The notes under the pieces: generated by a model
What the model saw: the letters and a program-made list of their open reading frames with translations, nothing else
What the model was told of the DNA's origin: nothing
Database searches by the model: none
NCBI RefSeq assembly: GCF_008831285.2
Contig: NC_045144.1
Location: 21,157,716 to 21,221,715, forward strand
Direction of reading: 5' to 3'
Source of the DNA: Nymphaea colorata
Lineage: Eukaryota > Streptophyta > Magnoliopsida > Nymphaeales > Nymphaeaceae
DNA: 64,000 nucleotides
Program-made: the position numbers and the translations under genes
Shown here: in pieces, positions 42,383 to 54,300 of the stretch
Layout: the number at the start of each line of letters is the position of its first letter
How positions within the stretch are numbered: the first letter of the stretch is position 1

Positions 42383-45300
42383 ATGGCGAAGACGAAACCG
42401 GGGAAGAAGGACTTGGATTCATACACCATTAAGGGGACAAACAAGGTCGTTAGAGGTATTTGCTTCGACCACCATCCTCATTTCTTGCCCCACTCTTTTT
42501 CCGTTCTCGTTCTTCCGCGTTTTGATGCTCGCATTGGAAGGGGCGGGGGCTGTGTGATGGGGTGGTATTGCCTGGAGTTGTGAGGCTTGTGTTTTGGCGT
42601 TGTTGGTCATCCAATGCCTGGGCTTTGGTGCAGCTGGCGACTGCGTCTTGATGCGGCCGTCGGATTCGGACAAGCCGCCGTACGTCGCGAGGGTGGAAAA
42701 GATTGAGGCCGATCATCGGAACAACGTTAAGGTTCGTGTGCGGTGGTATTACCGGCCGGAGGAGTCGATGGGAGGGCGGAGGCAGTTCCACGGAGCGAAG
42801 GAACTGTTCCTTTCCGACCATTACGACGTGCAGAGCGCCCACACGATAGAGGGGAAGTGCATTGTTCACTCCTTCAAGAATTACACGAAGCTTGAGAATG
42901 TGGGTGCCGAGGATTACTTCTGCCGGTTTGAGTACAAAGCTGCCACCGGCGGTTTCACTCCTGACAGGGTTGCTGTGTGAGTTCTTAGCTGGCTTTTGTT
43001 TCCTTCTCTGTTCTCCTTATTTGTTGTTTGAGAAAGGAGAATGATTTTCTTTCTTGCTTAGTGGCCGTTCGATTGAGGTGGTGGTGTTGTTTGCCTTGAA
43101 GGTACTGTAAATGTGAAATGCCTTACAACCCTGACGACCTCATGGTTCAGTGCGAAGGATGCAAAGACTGGTAAGGATGGCTGCTTATCTCGAAACTGGA
43201 AAATTCTGTTTCCATTTATGTGTACCGAGAGTTGCTTTACCGTTATATGAATGAAATCATTTGTTCAACAGCTTCCATTAGTGTTGAAACTTAGTTTATA
43301 AGCATAATCTTGTTGCTGCTCATTTCAAATCATAATTCATGCAGCAAACGATCTGTGGATCTCTGTTTCTTGAGGGAACTATTCGCCTCTGTACCATTGT
43401 ATTAGTTTAATGGCTTTAGTTCCCTGTACTGTTCTCTTGTATGATGGAAGCCCAATTACAGTTACAATGAGAGAATGACTAGTCGTGTCTTCTAGTTACA
43501 ATTATCTAAAATTAATATGGCAATATTTATTTATACATGCTACTCATCTTTATTTCCAAGTTTACATATGTTCATTCATCTTTGCATTTGATGAACATAA
43601 TAAATTTAGTCCGCATGTTCTTCCCTTTTCATTTGCTCTTGTTGTTGCTTTTTGCTAGATGTTCTTCATGCATCAAATTATAGAGTCAAAGATCTTGTGG
43701 ATGTTAAAAATACAGTTTGGTTGAGGTCAAGTTGGGCATTTTGTCATGCATGTCCTCTTCTTTTGGTCTATCATGTTAACCTTGTTGTTGAAATTAGCAA
43801 GTTCCAAGACAGATGGATGTGATATGAACATTAGACTGATAATCAATTTCTCTGATCAGGATCCATGGATCGGTATTAACTGTCCAACTATTTCGTCATT
43901 TACTCTTTGCTAAAGAAAATAACTGCTGTTGCACAATTAGTATTCTTCTTTTCTTGAGATTTTAAAGGTGAAGGAGGTTGTTTGGAGCATGTAAAGGGGA
44001 CTGTGTGCGAGTTGTGATATGAAGTTTTCATATCTGGAACTAACGTAATTGTTTTTGAATTTGCTTATCTGATATAACAAAATTCGTAGGCTAAGAGGGT
44101 TTAGCCGGATACTATCTCTGATGTGCAGAGTATGCACAAATGCCTGTACAGAGGAAAAGTTTAACCCATCTTTTATCTAAATATACTGCTCGTAGTATTC
44201 AAATACGAATGTTTTCAGGTGGGACAATTACTCTTTTGGACATGGAATATGATTTTCAACTGCATTGGGGCATCAAATGGTTATCTGTTTTGTTTGTTTC
44301 TAGGAAAAGATGTGTCTTCTCCAGCTAGTACAAATACAAGAAAATGGCATGGTGTTCAATGATAATGGCAATTTGTTGGAAGTTAAGGAATTCAAGAGAA
44401 GTTCATACTATGCAGATTATTGGTTTTCCAAGTAAAGTTGTTGGTTGGATTAAAAAAAGTACTTGGTCCATACCATAGTTTGGAATTTTCGGCAGCAAAA
44501 GTTGTTATTATGTCTTATGATGATGGGAGAAAATTTTGGGGCTTGTGTTTGCTACATCCAGATGAAACAACTTTGATGTGTCTCACAGACAAACCTCCAT
44601 ATGTAGTGAAAGTGCATACTTTCATTACATTACATACTTGTGGCATTTTCTGATGCAATAGAATTCAAGGAGCTGCCAAAGCACTACGAGAGCAATGCTG
44701 GAGACCAGCAAAATGCTTATAGCCACATATATTGTCACCACTATTTCATAAAATCCCTTTCATGCTTGTCAAACAGGCTTGCAGGCTAAGATACTAGTCT
44801 TTTGCCTGTATTGGCTCCATTGTTAAAGAAGTATTATATACCTTCCATGTGAACCATAATGTTATATGTCAGCTTAATTGTGTGTGTGTGTGAGGGAGAG
44901 AGAGAGAGGGAGAGAGAGAGAGTGAGTGATTATTCCATCATTGAGTCTTGTTCATTAATAATTGTCAAGGAACTTTTGTGAGAAGATCCCATGGTTCCAT
45001 TCTGTTGGGAGAGATTTTGATTTATAATTTCCATAAGCATGTATCAGGAGTAGGAATGGATAGTACAAAATTCAGAAGGTATTGTGCAAAATGAATCTGA
45101 ATCACAAGATTTTCACTTAGATGTAGATGTCATTATGCCAACTTCTATCTAGTTGGATTTGTTTTTTGAACAAACTCCCTTTTAGACGGGGCCATTCCTT
45201 AAGTGATCTATCAACTGTGAAATTGGATTCAACATATCAGATCATTCTATGATATGTAGGAGAGGGCTGAACTACTGCAACTTTTCAATGTTATACTTCC

Positions 45301-48300
45301 AATCTGGGCACCTAGGTGGTAGATATTTTATCAGAGTATGAACTTTGTCACCACAGAAAACAGGAGGAAAGAAGAGGAAGATGTGGTCAACCAGGGAGGC
45401 AGCTGTCAATTGAACCTGCCTCCTAACCATAATCATTATGTTTAAAACAGGATTATACACTTTGGAGTTTGGACAAAAATGCCCCTACAACACAATAATA
45501 AACAAGAAATGCCATTAATTTTTTGTAAGGCACATGCTAGAATAAAAGAAGTGCTAGGTTGGATGTGTTTGGATCTGGGTTCAAATTTGAATACAGTCTT
45601 AACACTAGGAACTTAACCAATGCTGCAACATGAGGAAATTCATTTATTCCATACTCATGGCTAGTCACTGTTAGTTGGACTTTGCTCAAAGAAGTAGACA
45701 TGTATTTCAGTTGCAGGATATGACAATTGTTACATGCTAAATTACAAGTGCCACTTGTAGTTCAGCATAACTAAGTTGATATTAGCTACTTTTTAGAAGG
45801 CCATTGAAAACTGTTATAGGCCATTGTGTCCTCATGGCTAGTCGATGGTCTGTGGCTATGGAAGTGAGAATGAACTGTGCTGTCAAAGTGCCAATATGGA
45901 TGGATCTCCTCAACTTTGTGGTTGAACTATGGGACAAGTATATTTTTTTATGACATAGCAAGGTTATTGGGTGAGGGGAAACCTTGTTCAGGTCAACTCC
46001 GTCCTCACATTTTGGTGAGGCTAGGTGTGCTTGAATATGGATAGAAGTTTCCTTAGCATTTACCCAAAATTGAAGGTGCTAAAATGGAAATGCAGTAAAT
46101 TTAGAAGTGGTGTATGAAGGTCTCACCAAATACTACAAGCTTTGCAGTGACATACTTCACAACCGTGGAGATGACCAAGGCCAATAGAAACTATAAGTAT
46201 GAGAGAAGAACTTGAAAGAGGTGCCTAACACAGGTGGTTCATTGAGAAGATAGCTATAATAGATATCTCAGTGTCCATGAAACCAGATAATACCATAATA
46301 GATTCATCGCCTTTTGATAGGAGGAACAGGTAAGAATAGAGATTAGAACCTACAATAGATGGGTCTTGGCAAAATAAGGAAATTACTCCTAACTTTACAA
46401 TGGTGCTGGAGGTAGAAACTAGATCTACAAAAGAGAAATAATTGCATGAAAGAAGACCTTGGACATCTAAGATTGCATGGGGAGGCACTTTGGGCACTTC
46501 TAATAGGAAGTTGAGGAGGCAGTTTTTGCATAAACACGGTAGATAATGCATCTCGACAAGTTCCTTGCTTTTTTCTACCACAGACATTGGTGCATCATGA
46601 GTTACACTTGCAATCCGAGGATTTTTTAGGAAAGTAAAGTTGGTTAGGAAAATCAACAAAGTCCCCTTAGTTCTCAATTTCTCATTTAGAGCTGCAAGGG
46701 CAATGCTCTTCCAAGGTTCTTCAGGCTGTTCCCACTCTCTATATAAGTTTATACCCAAAGTTATATGTGGAAAAATGAAGATAGTTTTGGAGATGACTAT
46801 TACTAAATCCCAATGTGCGTGCAGAAATTTTTGGCAATGTCATAGTGGCTCATGAGATGGTGAATTCCTTGCATCAGCAGTCCCCAAGCTCTTGCTTTCA
46901 ATTGGATTTAGTATATGATAGAATTAGGGGGAACTTCCTTCATATGACATTGGATGTAACACCTCATTGTGAAAAGGCTAGTTTTGTATGAAAATTTGTT
47001 GGAAATCTTTAAGAGCTTATGATAGGGTTGGTTAAATGATTGATTGTCTCGGTTCCTAGCCTTTTGGTGCAGGAACCGAAGTTATTAGGGAGCAGGTTAG
47101 GATTCTTAAAATCTAGAACTTGAGCTTGGTGCAGAAGTGGGCTGAATTATTAAAGGGTAGATTATAGCATGGATAGTCTAGTCATGTATTGAAGATTGTT
47201 GGAAATTTTCAAAGGCATATGAGGCGGCTGGTTAAGTGAGTTGTGTGGGTTCCTTATGGTTTTAGGGTAGGGACTAAAGTTGTTAGGGCAGGTTGAGATC
47301 CACTAAGCCAAGAGCCCAAGCTCAATGTAGGAGTGGGTTGGGTTATACTCTAAGTCACGGGTGGACCAAATTTGGTGAAGCACCCAAGTCGACTCGGGTG
47401 GTGGTGCGGCCCAACACGGTGCCTGACTGCATCAAACCAAGAGGTGACGCAGGGCTAACCCATTTAGTATTAGATTCTTTTTATTTGTTATATTCAATTT
47501 ATTGATTTGATTTTGTACGCTTTGATTTCCATTGATTTTGTCTTGGATCCAAAATAATTAGAAGGCCCTATTTAAGGGCACAAGTTGGTAGTTTACATTC
47601 ATTTGAAGTTGAGCAATGAATGTAACTCTAATTTGCTTTATTGATTTATTTTTATTCTTTTTTTTCGTTCTTTCAGTTATTTTTTTACTTCACCTTTTAA
47701 TTGCATTACTGTAGAGAATAAGGTGAGAAATCTTAATCATTGCATCAGATTGGTATTGGAGCCAGGATGTTTTCTGATCTTCATCATAGATGAAAATTTA
47801 AAGAATGATCTGGTTGTGGGAAAACAAAGGAAAAAATTGAATGTTTTGAAAAAAAGCTTGATGATCTTGTGTTTTGCCTAATCAAATATATAGATGGCCT
47901 ACACTATAGACAAGTGGACATGGAAGAAAATATGTGAGAGAGACAAGGGCATTGGGGAGAAGCAAATCAAGAAAGCAAAGTGCACATGAATCGAACTGCA
48001 TCTTAGAACTTTCATTTTCTTGTTCCTTTGTTTTTCTCATGGCTTGGTCATTCTTCAAATCTTAAGCCATGATGAAGACCGAAGAACAACCTAGCTCTAA
48101 TACCAATTTAATGTAGTGATTAGGATTTGTGGCCCAATCAGTGCAACAATACAATTGAAAAAGGAGTTGAAAAGTAATTGAAAGGGAACAAAACAAAGAT
48201 AAATCAAGACTACACAAATTAGGGTTATTGTTATTGCTCAACTTTAATAATAAATGCCAAAAGCTGGACTCTCATGGCCTTTAATAGGATCTTCCAGTAA

Positions 48301-51300
48301 TTTTGGATCCAATACAGAAATTAATGGAAATAAAAGGTTCTAAAAGCAGTAAATTGAATGAAACAAATAAAATGGATCAAATCCAAAATGGATCAGCCCT
48401 ACATCAAGAGGTCTCGAACTAGGTGATCCTCTGTCACCTTTGTTATTTATGGTGGTCATGGACATACTTCTTTGAAGGGGTTGAATTCAGTTCTGATTGT
48501 GGTCCCATTCCATGTCCTTGGGGATACTAGGGAGATGATTAAAGGTATTATAGGTAGGAACTAGGAACCTTACCCATCTTCTGCTGGCTTATCGAGGGTT
48601 TCTTCTCTTTGTGGGGAAAACACATACTTCCCACTGTGAAAATCTTATCAAGAAAATCCTAGTAAGGCTGTCGAAGTGGAAATTGGCTGCTTTATCTTGT
48701 CTTTGCAGGCTGTGCCTTCTCAACCAAAATACATAAGTGCAGGTACAACAGTATGGCATGGCAAGAAAGTATAGAGAAAAAACTGAAAGCCATGAAAGAG
48801 AATGGCCTTGATCTGGATATTATCCAGATCTGGACCATGAACTATCTAGTACACTATAAGTACTTGTGCGGTTGTGCCCCTAAATTACCATACGGACATT
48901 GGTGTGTCACCCAAGATGGAGTACCCATGTTACTTATCTTCTCAACCATAATCTGTATCCCATTCTTCTATTTTTGTGTGCCTTCTTTATGATCCATGGT
49001 TCTGCTATGAAAATAATAAAATCTTTAGCATAAAATTTCTTTTCACGTTTGACTGAAAGAATAGCCACAAGAATCATCAAATATCTTGGGGCAGTATTTC
49101 CATCCTTAAACTGAACAGGGGTAGGCGTAAATGACATTATTGATCTAAATTAAGCCTGCCTTAGATACTTGGCTCTGCAATCTGCATATTTATCCAAGGT
49201 AGGCTTTATGGGATATAATCAACAAATATCTGAAATATCATAGCTTGTGGATGTGAACCAGCAAATCCAAAGATACCTGGAGCTGGAGAAGTCTTTTATG
49301 GAGTTGGAAGAGCATTAACGACAAGGGTGAGTGGAGAATAAGAAATGGAAATATCACTAGAATCTGTCATGATGATTGGGGTCATGGGATTGTTATTTAC
49401 AGGGTTGCAGGGAATGGGTTCTAGAACGTAGAAGCTCAAGCATGTTTGCCAATAGCCAGTGTTGTTGATTCCTGGATGCACAAAGTTTCTAGCAGCTGGG
49501 AGGTGCAAAGGATAGTTCAGGATCTTCCCCTTAGCAAATTGTAGGATGAATGGACTTAGGACAGCAAGGCCTGAAATCATTTTGTAAAGGAGCATGAGAT
49601 GGCATTGTATCAGAAGCAAGAGCCTTAAGGACTCTAGGCATCGGCAATTTTGCCCCTCTCCTCCACAGCCACTGGTTTCTGTTTCTAGTGAGGGAAGGGT
49701 GCCTTCAAGTTCAAACTCAGCATCACCTGAAAAGAAGGGTCTACCTATTGCTAACAGAGGCATCTTTCATTCTTTTATGCGGGGAAGAGGAAACCAATCT
49801 GCATCTCCTGTTTGACTGCTTGATATCTAGAAACATTTGGATGTCTATTCTTGCAAGTTGGTATCTAGAAAAATTTGGAAGTATATTCTTGACAAAATGT
49901 GGCAAAACGTTGTGGAACATAAAGGATTGTGGATGAACTTGGTTGGTCTCTTTGTATTTCAAAAGAGGGCAGTTGAATAAATATTTGAGAATAAGAATTT
50001 GGGAATATGGATGTTGAGGAACAAATTGACTTTTCAGGGTTCCTTGAGCATACCCACGTCTACCTTACCTAGAATGATATGGATGGACCAGAAGAAGCAT
50101 TACCTGAATATGAAATCCAAGTAAACCAAGAAAAGGAAAGAAAGAGATGGCTTTCTATGGCCTCATCCCTGGTCTCTGTTGAAGCAAGTATAAGTTTGAT
50201 AGCATCGTGAACATCCTTAGTGAGTTAAAGGAGACATTAGGAAGATAGCTGCTATGTTCTCAACTAATTTCCAGGTCATTAACGGCAGATATCTCTGATA
50301 TTGTAAATCAAGTCATCATTGTCACAAACACCAAAAGGTAGGCTATATGGCTATAGTGAAGCTACCAACACTAGAGAGTGACCAAGTTTCCATCTACTCT
50401 AGGAGAAGTTTCTCATATGTGCATCAAGAGAATACTTCTAAAGAAATGTTAAGTCCCTACTAACTCCCTTTTGTAACCTTTGTTGGGTTGTCTTCCTTTG
50501 GGAGGTTTTTGGGTTCTCTGTCACCCAGTTTTTTTTCTCATCTGATAAAGAGGTTGGGTTCGATCCTTAGCAAGCTTACATTGGAGAGCTTTCAGACTCA
50601 TTGATGTAAGAGCCTTGATTATAAAAAAAGCATTGGCCCTACTTGATATGTTGTTGAACGCTAGGATGTTACTGTGGCTGCTTGTTCGTACTTATGTCAA
50701 ATTTATTTGGTGACACCTTGTTTTGCCTATTATGTACAGATTCTGCAATTATTATCCATAAGCTGCAAGAAGCATGGATGAATATGCTGAATGAATGCTG
50801 CTGCATACATTTACATATTGCAATCCCATGACGTATGCACATGTCTGTTTGATATATTAAGTTGCTTGGACATCATGTCTGCTTATCCTAACTCTTGTGA
50901 TTGTTGCATTAGTAGTATTTACCTAGGACTCTAGGTCTTTGGTTCAATTGTGCTTGATGGTTAATTTCTAAACTTGTTGCACTTAGTACAGAATTATAAT
51001 ATGATGGCGATAGAATCATTGGGGAGTTATCTGAATTAGATGCAACATGAGCTTGATTTGATTCTTGTTGCCTCTCGATTCCTGCAATTAACTGCTTGTG
51101 CTGGATATTCTAGACAATTTTGTCTCTAGGGCCTGATTGAGCTTGCTTTTTACGAGTACTTTACCTGCTTGTATTGCTCTCCATACTCTGACTATTGTTA
51201 TGGACGTGATATTTGAAGGCCCATGATCATCTATAGTATGCAGTATTTGAAGATCCATGATCATGTGTTGCATGCAACTTAATTTTATCATGTCTAACAT

Positions 51301-54300
51301 TGCAGGTTTCATCCATCTTGCATGGGTATGACTATAGAACAAGCAAAAAAGTTAGATCACTTTTTATGTTCTGACTGCTCCTCTGAAGATGAAGAGAAGA
51401 AGCCAAACAATGTATATCCTGTTTCACCTTTAGCTGAACACAAGGTCAGAAAATGTTTTCTTCTCTGGAATATACTTATCCATTATTTTGTTTTTATGCT
51501 TCTTATCCTTGGTGAGGGTTACATCTATCATATTGAATAACTGACGTCTTAGTGAATGGCATAATTAACAAAAGAGCTTCAATCATTCTTCCTGTGAGTA
51601 TGTGAGGTTGACAAGCTATTTCGTGATATTATGGTATATAATTGATTTTGATTCTGTTGTCACTCTTCAAAAAGCACATCGCTGCTAATAGCATTATGAG
51701 AAAGTAAATGCATCTGATCATGCAACTATGTATGTGTGCTTCAAAGTTTCCTTTTTTCTTTCCTCTTATTTCATGATTTTCTAGTGTAATTGTTTTTTCA
51801 CATCTTTAAGATAACAAAAAGGCAAAAGGCGGTGGATTGAAATTACTTTCCTTAGGTTATCTAATCAAAGGTAGCAGAAGGTCTTTCTTTTTTTTCTGAG
51901 CATTGTTTGGAATGAAGGGGCCTGTACAATGTGCCTTCATTGAACAAGCAGCGATGTCCTTAAGATAAAACCAACAAATGCTTCATTATCCCATCATCTT
52001 CTCTTTTTTTCTTGGCATATCCATTCTTATTGTTCTCCATGCCCTCTACTTTAAGCTAATGAAAAGGAAAACAGTCTTCAATTGGGGAACTTGCTTTCTT
52101 TAGATTACTGACTCAAATGTAGCACAATGGTCTTTGTTTTCTTTTTTAACATTGTTATTATGTTACGGAAGGGCCTGCACAGAGGTGTTTCATTCGAGGA
52201 GTGGTCTTGCCCTGAAAAGAACACTACAATGCATTATTATCTCTTCAAACTTCTTTTTGCATATCCGCACTCTCTCTCTCTCTTCTTTTTGTGCATATGC
52301 TGCCATGAGTCTGTTGCTTTGTAATCATATTCGTTAGATTTATTAGAAACTTAGATCTAACTGTTGTATGCAAAAGTTAAGTACTTGGGTTGCCTTTTCA
52401 TGTAGATGTGCATGAGTTGCCAATCCGGCTTTGTCTACCTATGCATGACAGTTGAGAAAGGATCTATCCTGTCACTTGACTTTGATGGGGTAATGATGTG
52501 AATGTCATATACAAGCCTAGGCTTCTTTGAGGACATTGAAATCAAAGATTCGATGGAATTTACTAATTTAGATTTATTTCCAAAAACATGATCACAGTTA
52601 TGGTTGAACTGAAAACTAGTGCTGAATCTATTTATTTCATCAGATTTAGCAAAATAACTTTCTTATATATATTTATTTTTATGATTTGATTGTGACATAT
52701 GAGCATATTTCTCGTGAGCCACAAAAGTTAACATCCATAGTATATTGAAACTTGGCAACTCAAGAAATCATTCTTTCATCTATACCCAAAAGTTAACATC
52801 CACGTAAGGGAAGAAAATTCTATATTCTGATCCTTAGGGAACAAACAGTTCCAGCATGTCTATATGATTAGATAATGAACAATTTGCACCTGAATTTCCA
52901 CTTCAAGATGAAAGAAATCATTCTTTCATCTATACCCAAAAAGTTAACATCCACGTGAGGGAAGAAAATTCTATATTCTGATCCTTAGGGAACAAACAGT
53001 TCCAGCATGTCTATATGATTAGATAATGAACAATTTGCACCTGAATTTCCACTTCAAGATTACTGTATCTCCATCAATACCAGATATTTATCCTACATAG
53101 TACACATAGTCATATGCACTTGCAAAAACTATATATTCCTAGTGGCAGATTAGTTTCCATAGTAATCTTGCTATATATTTAGCAGAACATATTTACTTTA
53201 TTTAGTGTAATCATCTTTTTTAGAAATTTAAATTATCTATAACCATTTTACACTAATCCAAATTATTAATAACCAGGATAAAAAGGAGTTGACATCGATT
53301 ATAGATGGAAAATACCCAAATTTTTAGGTTATTTTGCAAATCAGGAGATAAGTTAAGAAAGCATTGATTGAACTAAGATATTTGTGAGATCTTTTTTTTG
53401 GTCAAAATTATGACTATATATATGTGTATCCTATGTTGCCAATTGCACTTGATATCCTTTTCCAAAAAGCAGCAATGACCTTGTTTTTGTTCACTGAATG
53501 TGCATTGCGATGGGGATGCAGTCATGAACTCAAATGGATCCAGCTTACGCATGTCTGTGACTCTGTGTGCATGTGCAATTGTTTTACTGGCTTCTTGAGA
53601 CTCTGCACTTTTTTCCATTTCCGCACCCACACCAAGTGACAGAGCTTACCATTGCATGGGAATCTAGATGTCTAATGATGTTTCATTGATTTTTGAATAA
53701 TTTTGCTTGTATGATTTGAAGGGTGAAAACTGAATTGACATCAGGTTCCCACCCATTGGGGTTGTCCGATTATCTCCTCTGTCTCGGTTTTCAGTGTACT
53801 CATAAAGGTATATTGACAGACCAAATGAAAGGTTCCCATGACCAGGTGACCCTTTAGGGTGAAATGGGTGCCACCTGATCCTCTCTTGTGTAAACATGCT
53901 CTAGTAGTTTAAAGAGGTTTTGGTCTTAGTGTTTGAATTAGCACAAGTTCATTTAGAGTTTTCCTTTCCCATAAAGCTCGTGACTTCTTCTTTTGTTCAT
54001 TTTGATAACAAAATTATAATATTGCTTTCTGCTCTCTCTCGCGCTCTCTCTTTGTGATTGCATCACATGTCAAGGAAATGATGGGTTTCAATTTTTTATC
54101 ACTTTAAAAGCTGGGTCCACCAGGTCCTCTTCATCAAGATGAACAGTTATTTTCCAATATCCAGGACTCTCTCCTTCTCTCTCTCTTGCTGTCTAGAGAT
54201 ATGCTGCCTTGTTATTCTGAACCTTTAAAGCTCCTTCGGTAAATCTAATTCACAAATGGATATTACTTATCCAGAATCTAGGGGAAAATTTGTAGAGTAG

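Follow-up and report, generated by a model that had tools for sequence, protein, structure and literature searches.

Long terminal repeat (LTR) retrotransposons carry their LTRs in direct orientation, and so do the elements known as terminal-repeat retrotransposons in miniature (TRIM) and large retrotransposon derivatives (LARD); TRIM are described in PMC6934838 as having two terminal direct repeats. Here we describe an insertion of 962 bp with another layout, which lies in an intron of about 8 kb in the EBS gene of Nymphaea colorata, within a stretch of 64 kb (C7:21157716-21221715, the whole of which is called the window below). In its parts, the insertion resembles an ordinary plant LTR retrotransposon (class I) primed by the initiator methionine tRNA (tRNA-iMet), with LTRs of about 300 bp that run from TG to CA, a primer site, a leader, a putative gag start, and a 5-bp duplication, and it resembles TRIM and LARD in being short, nonautonomous, and equipped with LTR ends. 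It differs from ordinary elements in that its LTRs are inverted, with U3 at both termini, and from TRIM and LARD, which have direct LTRs and can be copied, in a layout that should be unable to complete strand transfer. We favor, with about even confidence, the reading that this palindromic LTR-retrotransposon insertion, with U3 at both outer termini, was made by a strand switch in complementary DNA (cDNA) and integrated as a single unit.

The composite (47445-48406, in window coordinates) is made up of the same LTR front end twice over, the two copies facing inward and each having the order LTR, tRNA-iMet-type primer site, leader, and putative gag start (Table 1); the arms, the order of their parts, their near-abutment, and the flanking repeat are seen directly. 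When 46001-49500 was compared with the window by BLAST, 47445-47835 gave a minus-strand match to 48406-48020 (71.6% identity over 402 columns with gaps, E 4.7e-47). In a local alignment of the arms, 305 of 403 ungapped columns were identical (75.7%), with 60 transitions, 38 transversions, and 29 gap columns; ungapped identity in the multiple alignment was 70%, and the Kimura two-parameter (K2P) distance between the arms was 0.30 in pairwise and 0.40 in multiple alignments. The score of 333 lies far above the maximum of 61 obtained from 200 dinucleotide shuffles, which leads us to reject chance similarity and bears out the facing LTR-primer site-leader segments reported in the initial annotation of this DNA. 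The inverted pairing of that annotation stands, and its arm limits are corrected to 47445 to approximately 47979 on the left and approximately 47984 to 48406 on the right. As the arms differ by a quarter, an assembly or read fold-back artifact is unlikely. They are the sole inverted pair in 94 kb (the window with L005, L006, and L007; dust on, E of ≤1e-5, length of ≥60 nt); with dust off and E of ≤1e-4, a 74-nt inverted pair was also found in L005, so that shorter inverted pairs do occur.

Both arms have the features of the beginning of an LTR element. The primer sites, which had been assigned to tRNA-Met from the outset, lie just inside the LTR in each arm and agree at 11 of 13 positions with the 13-letter tRNA-iMet core used for scoring. 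A scan of both strands of the window for this core returned two sites at 11/13 or better, both of them in the arms, 16 at 10/13 or better, and none at 12/13 or better. The LTR termini read TG...CA, with TA in place of CA at the inner end of the right LTR, and the start of the left LTR is supported by the alignment of a genomic copy (C10a), which begins with the same TGAC; a TATA-like CTATTTAAG was noted by eye in the left LTR at 47568. One reading frame of the putative gag start of the left arm translates, and this piece had no Pfam match, as was true of the gag-region pieces of C10 (0 families). A direct copy of the LTR was not found in the window (BLAST of 46001-49500, E of ≤1e-3), the LTRs being inverted, and between them lie only primer sites, leaders, and putative gag start, with neither gag-pol nor a polypurine tract. 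The 962-bp insert contains no pol, whose domain order distinguishes Ty1/copia from Ty3/gypsy.

The evidence for a single integration comes from the flanks. AGAGG abuts the left arm at TG and the right arm at CA; the repeat falls within the 4- to 6-bp length of target duplications, and this perfect match, flush with the termini of both arms, has a probability by chance of 0.001 to 0.002 (0.0012 from local composition; 0.002 from the window itself, where 124 of 63,028 equally spaced 5-mer pairs match). The stretch shared by both flanks is really 8 bases long (CAAGAGGT), as the adjoining CA and T agree with the end letters of the LTR, and the limits of AGAGG thus rest on the TG/CA rule. Since U3 forms each outer end and a single target duplication is common to the two, we conclude that head-to-head DNA was probably integrated once. 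The initial annotation had offered a fused or self-inserted pair of 5' ends or an aberrant reverse transcription product; AGAGG at both outer U3 ends agrees with a fused or aberrant product, whereas self-insertion is disfavored, as auto-integration should not produce a single target duplication on the outer side of the two U3 termini. Auto-integration of Ty1, another aberrant fate of LTR cDNA, can reportedly invert segments but is said to yield circles without an outer target duplication, which only the palindrome has.

The same repeat bears on two other histories. Two separate or nested insertions in opposite orientation, with inner parts later deleted, or some other rearrangement after integration, seem to us improbable: such rearrangements are common in plant genomes, and the other sites found also have no complete element in the stretches covered, but separate insertions predict no shared outer repeat, and here all five bases match. 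Capture of an inverted cDNA pair through integrase-independent end joining at a chromosomal break has a parallel in yeast, where breaks take up Ty cDNA and inverted pairs of fragments (PMC11724301). End joining would, however, yield exact TG/CA outer LTR ends and a 5-bp duplication by chance only, and we think it very improbable that the palindrome arose in this way.

How the head-to-head molecule might have formed is suggested by the place where the arms meet. Compared with C10a (L004/L006), which runs in one direction only, the left arm is homologous to 47979 by BLAST, and the homology of the right arm reaches inward to 47984. A weaker local alignment of the left arm continues to 48009 and overlaps the right arm up to that position. 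The stretch of about 130 bp formerly described as a separate spacer between the arms is itself left-arm sequence, colinear with C10a to 47979. Because the left arm and spacer are colinear with C10a and the right arm extends to 47984, nothing foreign need lie between the arms, and a spacer of foreign DNA was rejected. About 100 nt of left-arm sequence (approximately 47878-47979) finds no counterpart in the right arm and would form a loop, so that the junction, as judged from the alignments, appears to have the geometry of a fold-back whose loop spans about 100 nt. GCAAA (47975-47979) is complementary to TTTGC (47873-47877), approximately where the right-arm homology stops; this microhomology is short, lies in old sequence, and is suggestive only.

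We infer both strand switching and integration as one unit, which could have proceeded as follows. Plus-strand DNA would have been extended through the LTR, the primer site, and the leader and some 160 nt into putative gag. A strand switch in early gag at GCAAA/TTTGC, by fold-back on the strand itself or onto a sister plus strand, would then have led to copying back across the leader, primer site, and LTR as far as the end of U3. To integrase, the double-stranded product may have looked like an ordinary element that bears an LTR end on each side, and it would have been inserted, with the 5-bp AGAGG duplication, into an apparently dead long interspersed nuclear element (LINE) in the EBS intron. 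The insert has decayed and could not have copied itself further, as its 962 bp leave no space for pol, for a polypurine tract, or for a direct 3' LTR.

Strand switching of plus-strand cDNA would explain near-equal arms with a one-sided loop, and the arms do appear to meet without filler, with the unpaired part in one arm only, like a fold-back loop. In yeast, inverted insertions arose from a single-stranded DNA of 69 nt that carried an inverted microhomology of 8 nt (PMC11724301), and 16% of 342 inversions arose within one molecule whereas 84% joined two molecules, so that a self-switch and a sister-switch are both chemically plausible; fold-back switching is described there as possible inside extrachromosomal single-stranded DNA. 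A short microhomology and an inverted duplication with a loop are also what fold-back template switching produces at breaks (PMC11724301, PMC11292364, and PMC7467729). In those papers it is described for breaks, repair polymerases, or transformed oligonucleotides, not for retroelement cDNA that integrates with a target duplication.

The relationship between the arms was examined against the genome (407.8 Mb in 783 contigs), with match counts for arms and flanks that are lower bounds. The left arm matched itself, the right arm, C11, and C10a (4/4 candidates), the right arm matched itself, the left arm, C10a, and another site on C10, named C10b (4/4), and the leader-gag stretch matched itself and C10a (2/2). 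In these searches, the best genomic match of each arm besides itself is the other arm, with 179 bits for the left arm (the next 112 and 87) and 181 bits for the right arm (the next 78 and 57). Site patterns favored the arms as sisters in all three quartets (14:9:4, 18:13:12, and 15:6:7). The composite matched one place only in both C10a and C11 (10 kb each), and opposite-strand BLAST rows in C10b (3,068 bases) were at most 33 nt long with E of 0.001 or weaker. An inverted partner was thus not seen for any of the three in the stretches covered by this incomplete search. Nor was a second LTR of C10a found in the 19.5 kb around it, where, besides itself, one 29-nt row was returned, or a full-length relative among the places found by the genome searches. 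With plant substitution rates of 1.3e-8 to 6.5e-9 per site per year, and on the assumption that the arms started out identical, the insertion would be roughly 12 to 30 million years old, an order of magnitude and not a date. A one-way fragment of the same family, with LTR, primer site, leader, and gag-like frame, lies at L006:3740-4912, near an open frame that by eye resembles an Smr-domain gene.

A close rival, which we provisionally place behind template switching, involves two sister cDNAs of one particle, each of which would have brought one U3 end to one integrase complex, with the inner tails trimmed and end-joined. Co-integration of the U3 ends with a 5-bp stagger would explain the flanking repeat and the abutting arms, the arms may have differed from the start, and no hairpin would have to be opened; we consider this origin possible, though on the unlikely side, as the breaks in the two tails would have to lie no more than about 100 nt apart, although the element would measure several kilobases. 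That the arms end within about 100 nt of each other, as independent breakage of such an element should rarely cause, speaks for strand switching, as do the reciprocal best matches of the arms and the likely LINE sequence (weak scores) on either side of the insertion.

Several observations weigh against strand switching followed by a single integration. A fold-back hairpin has one free LTR end, and an extra step is needed for two. In the yeast experiment, most inversions (84%) joined two molecules (PMC11724301). The arms differ by a K2P distance of 0.30 to 0.40, so that their identity at birth must be assumed. The grouping of the arms as sisters had a bootstrap value of 30 in a five-sequence tree, the second of the three quartets was narrow, and some stretches look nearer to other copies (by eye, the left arm is nearer to C11 close to the TATA box). 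The 460 bp that adjoin the insertion on its left cannot clearly be assigned to LINE, and an empty site was not found, the downstream flank matching itself only in the genome search (1/1 candidate).

Other classes of element with inverted ends can be set aside. DIRS elements, which share inverted terminal repeats with the palindrome, are not known to make a target duplication. They carry a tyrosine recombinase and use circular intermediates (PMC5633606); we rejected this class because the palindrome has a 5-bp duplication, primer sites, and TG...CA ends and because a recombinase cannot fit in 962 bp. A DNA transposon of the terminal inverted repeat (TIR) or fold-back type, whose termini would be unrelated to LTRs and which would have no primer site, was also rejected, as both arms consist of LTR, primer site, and leader and are colinear with a one-way genomic copy. 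In limited literature searches, drawn mainly from papers outside subscription, no description of a U3-to-U3 palindromic LTR insertion was found. As far as the accessible portions go, a plant paper on "LTRs in opposite orientation" concerns marker primers, and "palindromic LTR" elsewhere refers to circle junctions.

A further issue is whether the palindrome acts through RNA. The plus strand, which is the sense of EBS, folds at -344.2 kcal/mol compared to -206.7 ± 8.75 kcal/mol in 20 shuffles (z of -15.7), with 324 predicted pairs between the arms (286 Watson-Crick and 38 G-U), of which 320 are kept with 500-nt flanks. The hairpin in the pre-mRNA that had been proposed at the start is therefore in keeping with the predicted fold, but a long uninterrupted helix is not: the longest uninterrupted helix in the predicted fold is 18 bp, the longest Watson-Crick run is 13, and no helix of ≥21 bp is present. 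The CpG observed/expected ratio is 0.24 and 0.18 in the two arms versus 0.50 in the window, which fits past methylation. We would hardly expect the intronic inverted repeat to serve as a hairpin source of small interfering RNAs directed at EBS or at the family of the element; the strong predicted fold and the CpG depletion of both arms would suit such a role, whereas the short helices and an Rfam search of 46800-49200, with no match at the gathering score, argue against it. If the arms were identical when young, the palindrome would have formed a near-perfect hairpin of about 420 bp then and would form a poor one now, and it is probably now an inert relic. In maize, Mu killer is reportedly a natural inverted duplication of a transposon that starts silencing, the transposon being a DNA transposon. 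Like Mu killer, the palindrome places a transposon end in an inverted duplication able to form hairpin RNA; unlike Mu killer, it is an old LTR element, and its hairpin role is a prediction only.

If the outer duplication is a true one, a plant LTR integrase accepted a molecule that bears U3 at each end, and LTR elements are able to create a long inverted repeat through just one integration. It is conceivable, though we hold it doubtful, that U3-to-U3 palindromic insertions recur as a by-product of LTR retrotransposition, each planting a young, perfect hairpin able to silence its own family. Such insertions may have been overlooked, as LTR finders seek direct repeats and TIR finders would file them as fold-back DNA transposons or as similar to miniature inverted-repeat transposable elements. 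The present case gives a simple genome-wide search, for inverted arms of LTR and primer site with a shared 4- to 6-bp duplication. This copy is old, and its interest lies in LTR integration and in a class of insertion that standard finders are not expected to recognize.

Table 1. Features of the palindromic insertion and its surroundings (window coordinates)
Feature	Coordinates	Strand	Basis
EBS intron enclosing the palindrome and LINE-like pieces	43172..51306	+	Protein matches on either side; limits approximate, not splice sites
Likely upstream LINE reverse transcriptase remnant (NVIVAHEMV...)	46840..46980	+	Translation, by eye
Left target-site duplication, AGAGG	47440..47444		5/5 match, flush with LTR terminus
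Left LTR, 303 bp, TGACGCA...TGCATCA	47445..47747	+	Letters and alignment to right arm
Left primer-binding site, tRNA-iMet type, TGGTATTGGAGCC	47751..47763	+	11/13 to tRNA-iMet core
Left leader and putative gag start (gag from about 47816)	47764..47979	+	Colinear with C10a copy
Arm-meeting zone, most likely 47980-47983	47980..48009		Ends of left and right homology to C10a
Right leader and putative gag start, inverted	47984..48092	-	Alignment to C10a copy; left-arm alignment ends at 47990
Right primer-binding site, TGGTATTAGAGCT	48093..48105	-	11/13 to tRNA-iMet core
Right LTR, 298 bp, TGATGTA...TACATTA	48109..48406	-	Alignment to left LTR; letters
Right target-site duplication, AGAGG	48407..48411		5/5 match, flush with LTR terminus
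Likely downstream LINE remnant, later zf-RVT-like piece	48407..49936	+	Pfam below curated cutoffs

The assignment of the host intron to EBS, made at the outset, is confirmed by a BAH exon that matches solved EBS structures (5z8n, E 5.3e-71) and by two same-strand pieces on either side of the intron that a PHD probe picked out, one at 43103-43171 that agrees with the probe at 100% and one at 51307-51447 that agrees at 60%. Within the intron, a decayed plant LINE with reverse transcriptase and zf-RVT-like pieces likely spans 46680-49936, and the downstream flank of the palindrome and the more distant part of its upstream flank are likely pieces of one plus-strand LINE reverse transcriptase, as far as the translations indicate, with about 460 bp of other sequence between the upstream piece and the insertion. 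The downstream flank gave Pfam scores for RVT_1 (E 0.078, 0.048, and 0.24) and zf-RVT (E 0.0082), all under the curated cutoffs, and the upstream piece had no Pfam match at E of ≤10. The proposal that joining the flanks restores the LINE frame was weakened, the left 460 bp not being clearly LINE-like; in addition, the peptide to the left of RGL lacks two codons relative to the usual spacing.

Just left of the palindrome, a sequence of about 120 bp is present in two direct copies (46970-47294), which are 71% alike, lie 200 bp apart, and apparently interrupt the LINE. Ten base pairs left of the insertion, GACTGCATCA (47425-47434) is by eye letter-for-letter identical to the LTR end in the C10 copy; it has no primer site after it and may be the end of another LTR-like insertion or a chance match. 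Elsewhere in the window, the list of open reading frames suggests by eye a phosphofructokinase-like gene at about 11 to 15 kb and a MOCS3/UBA4-like gene with a rhodanese end at about 22 to 36 kb.

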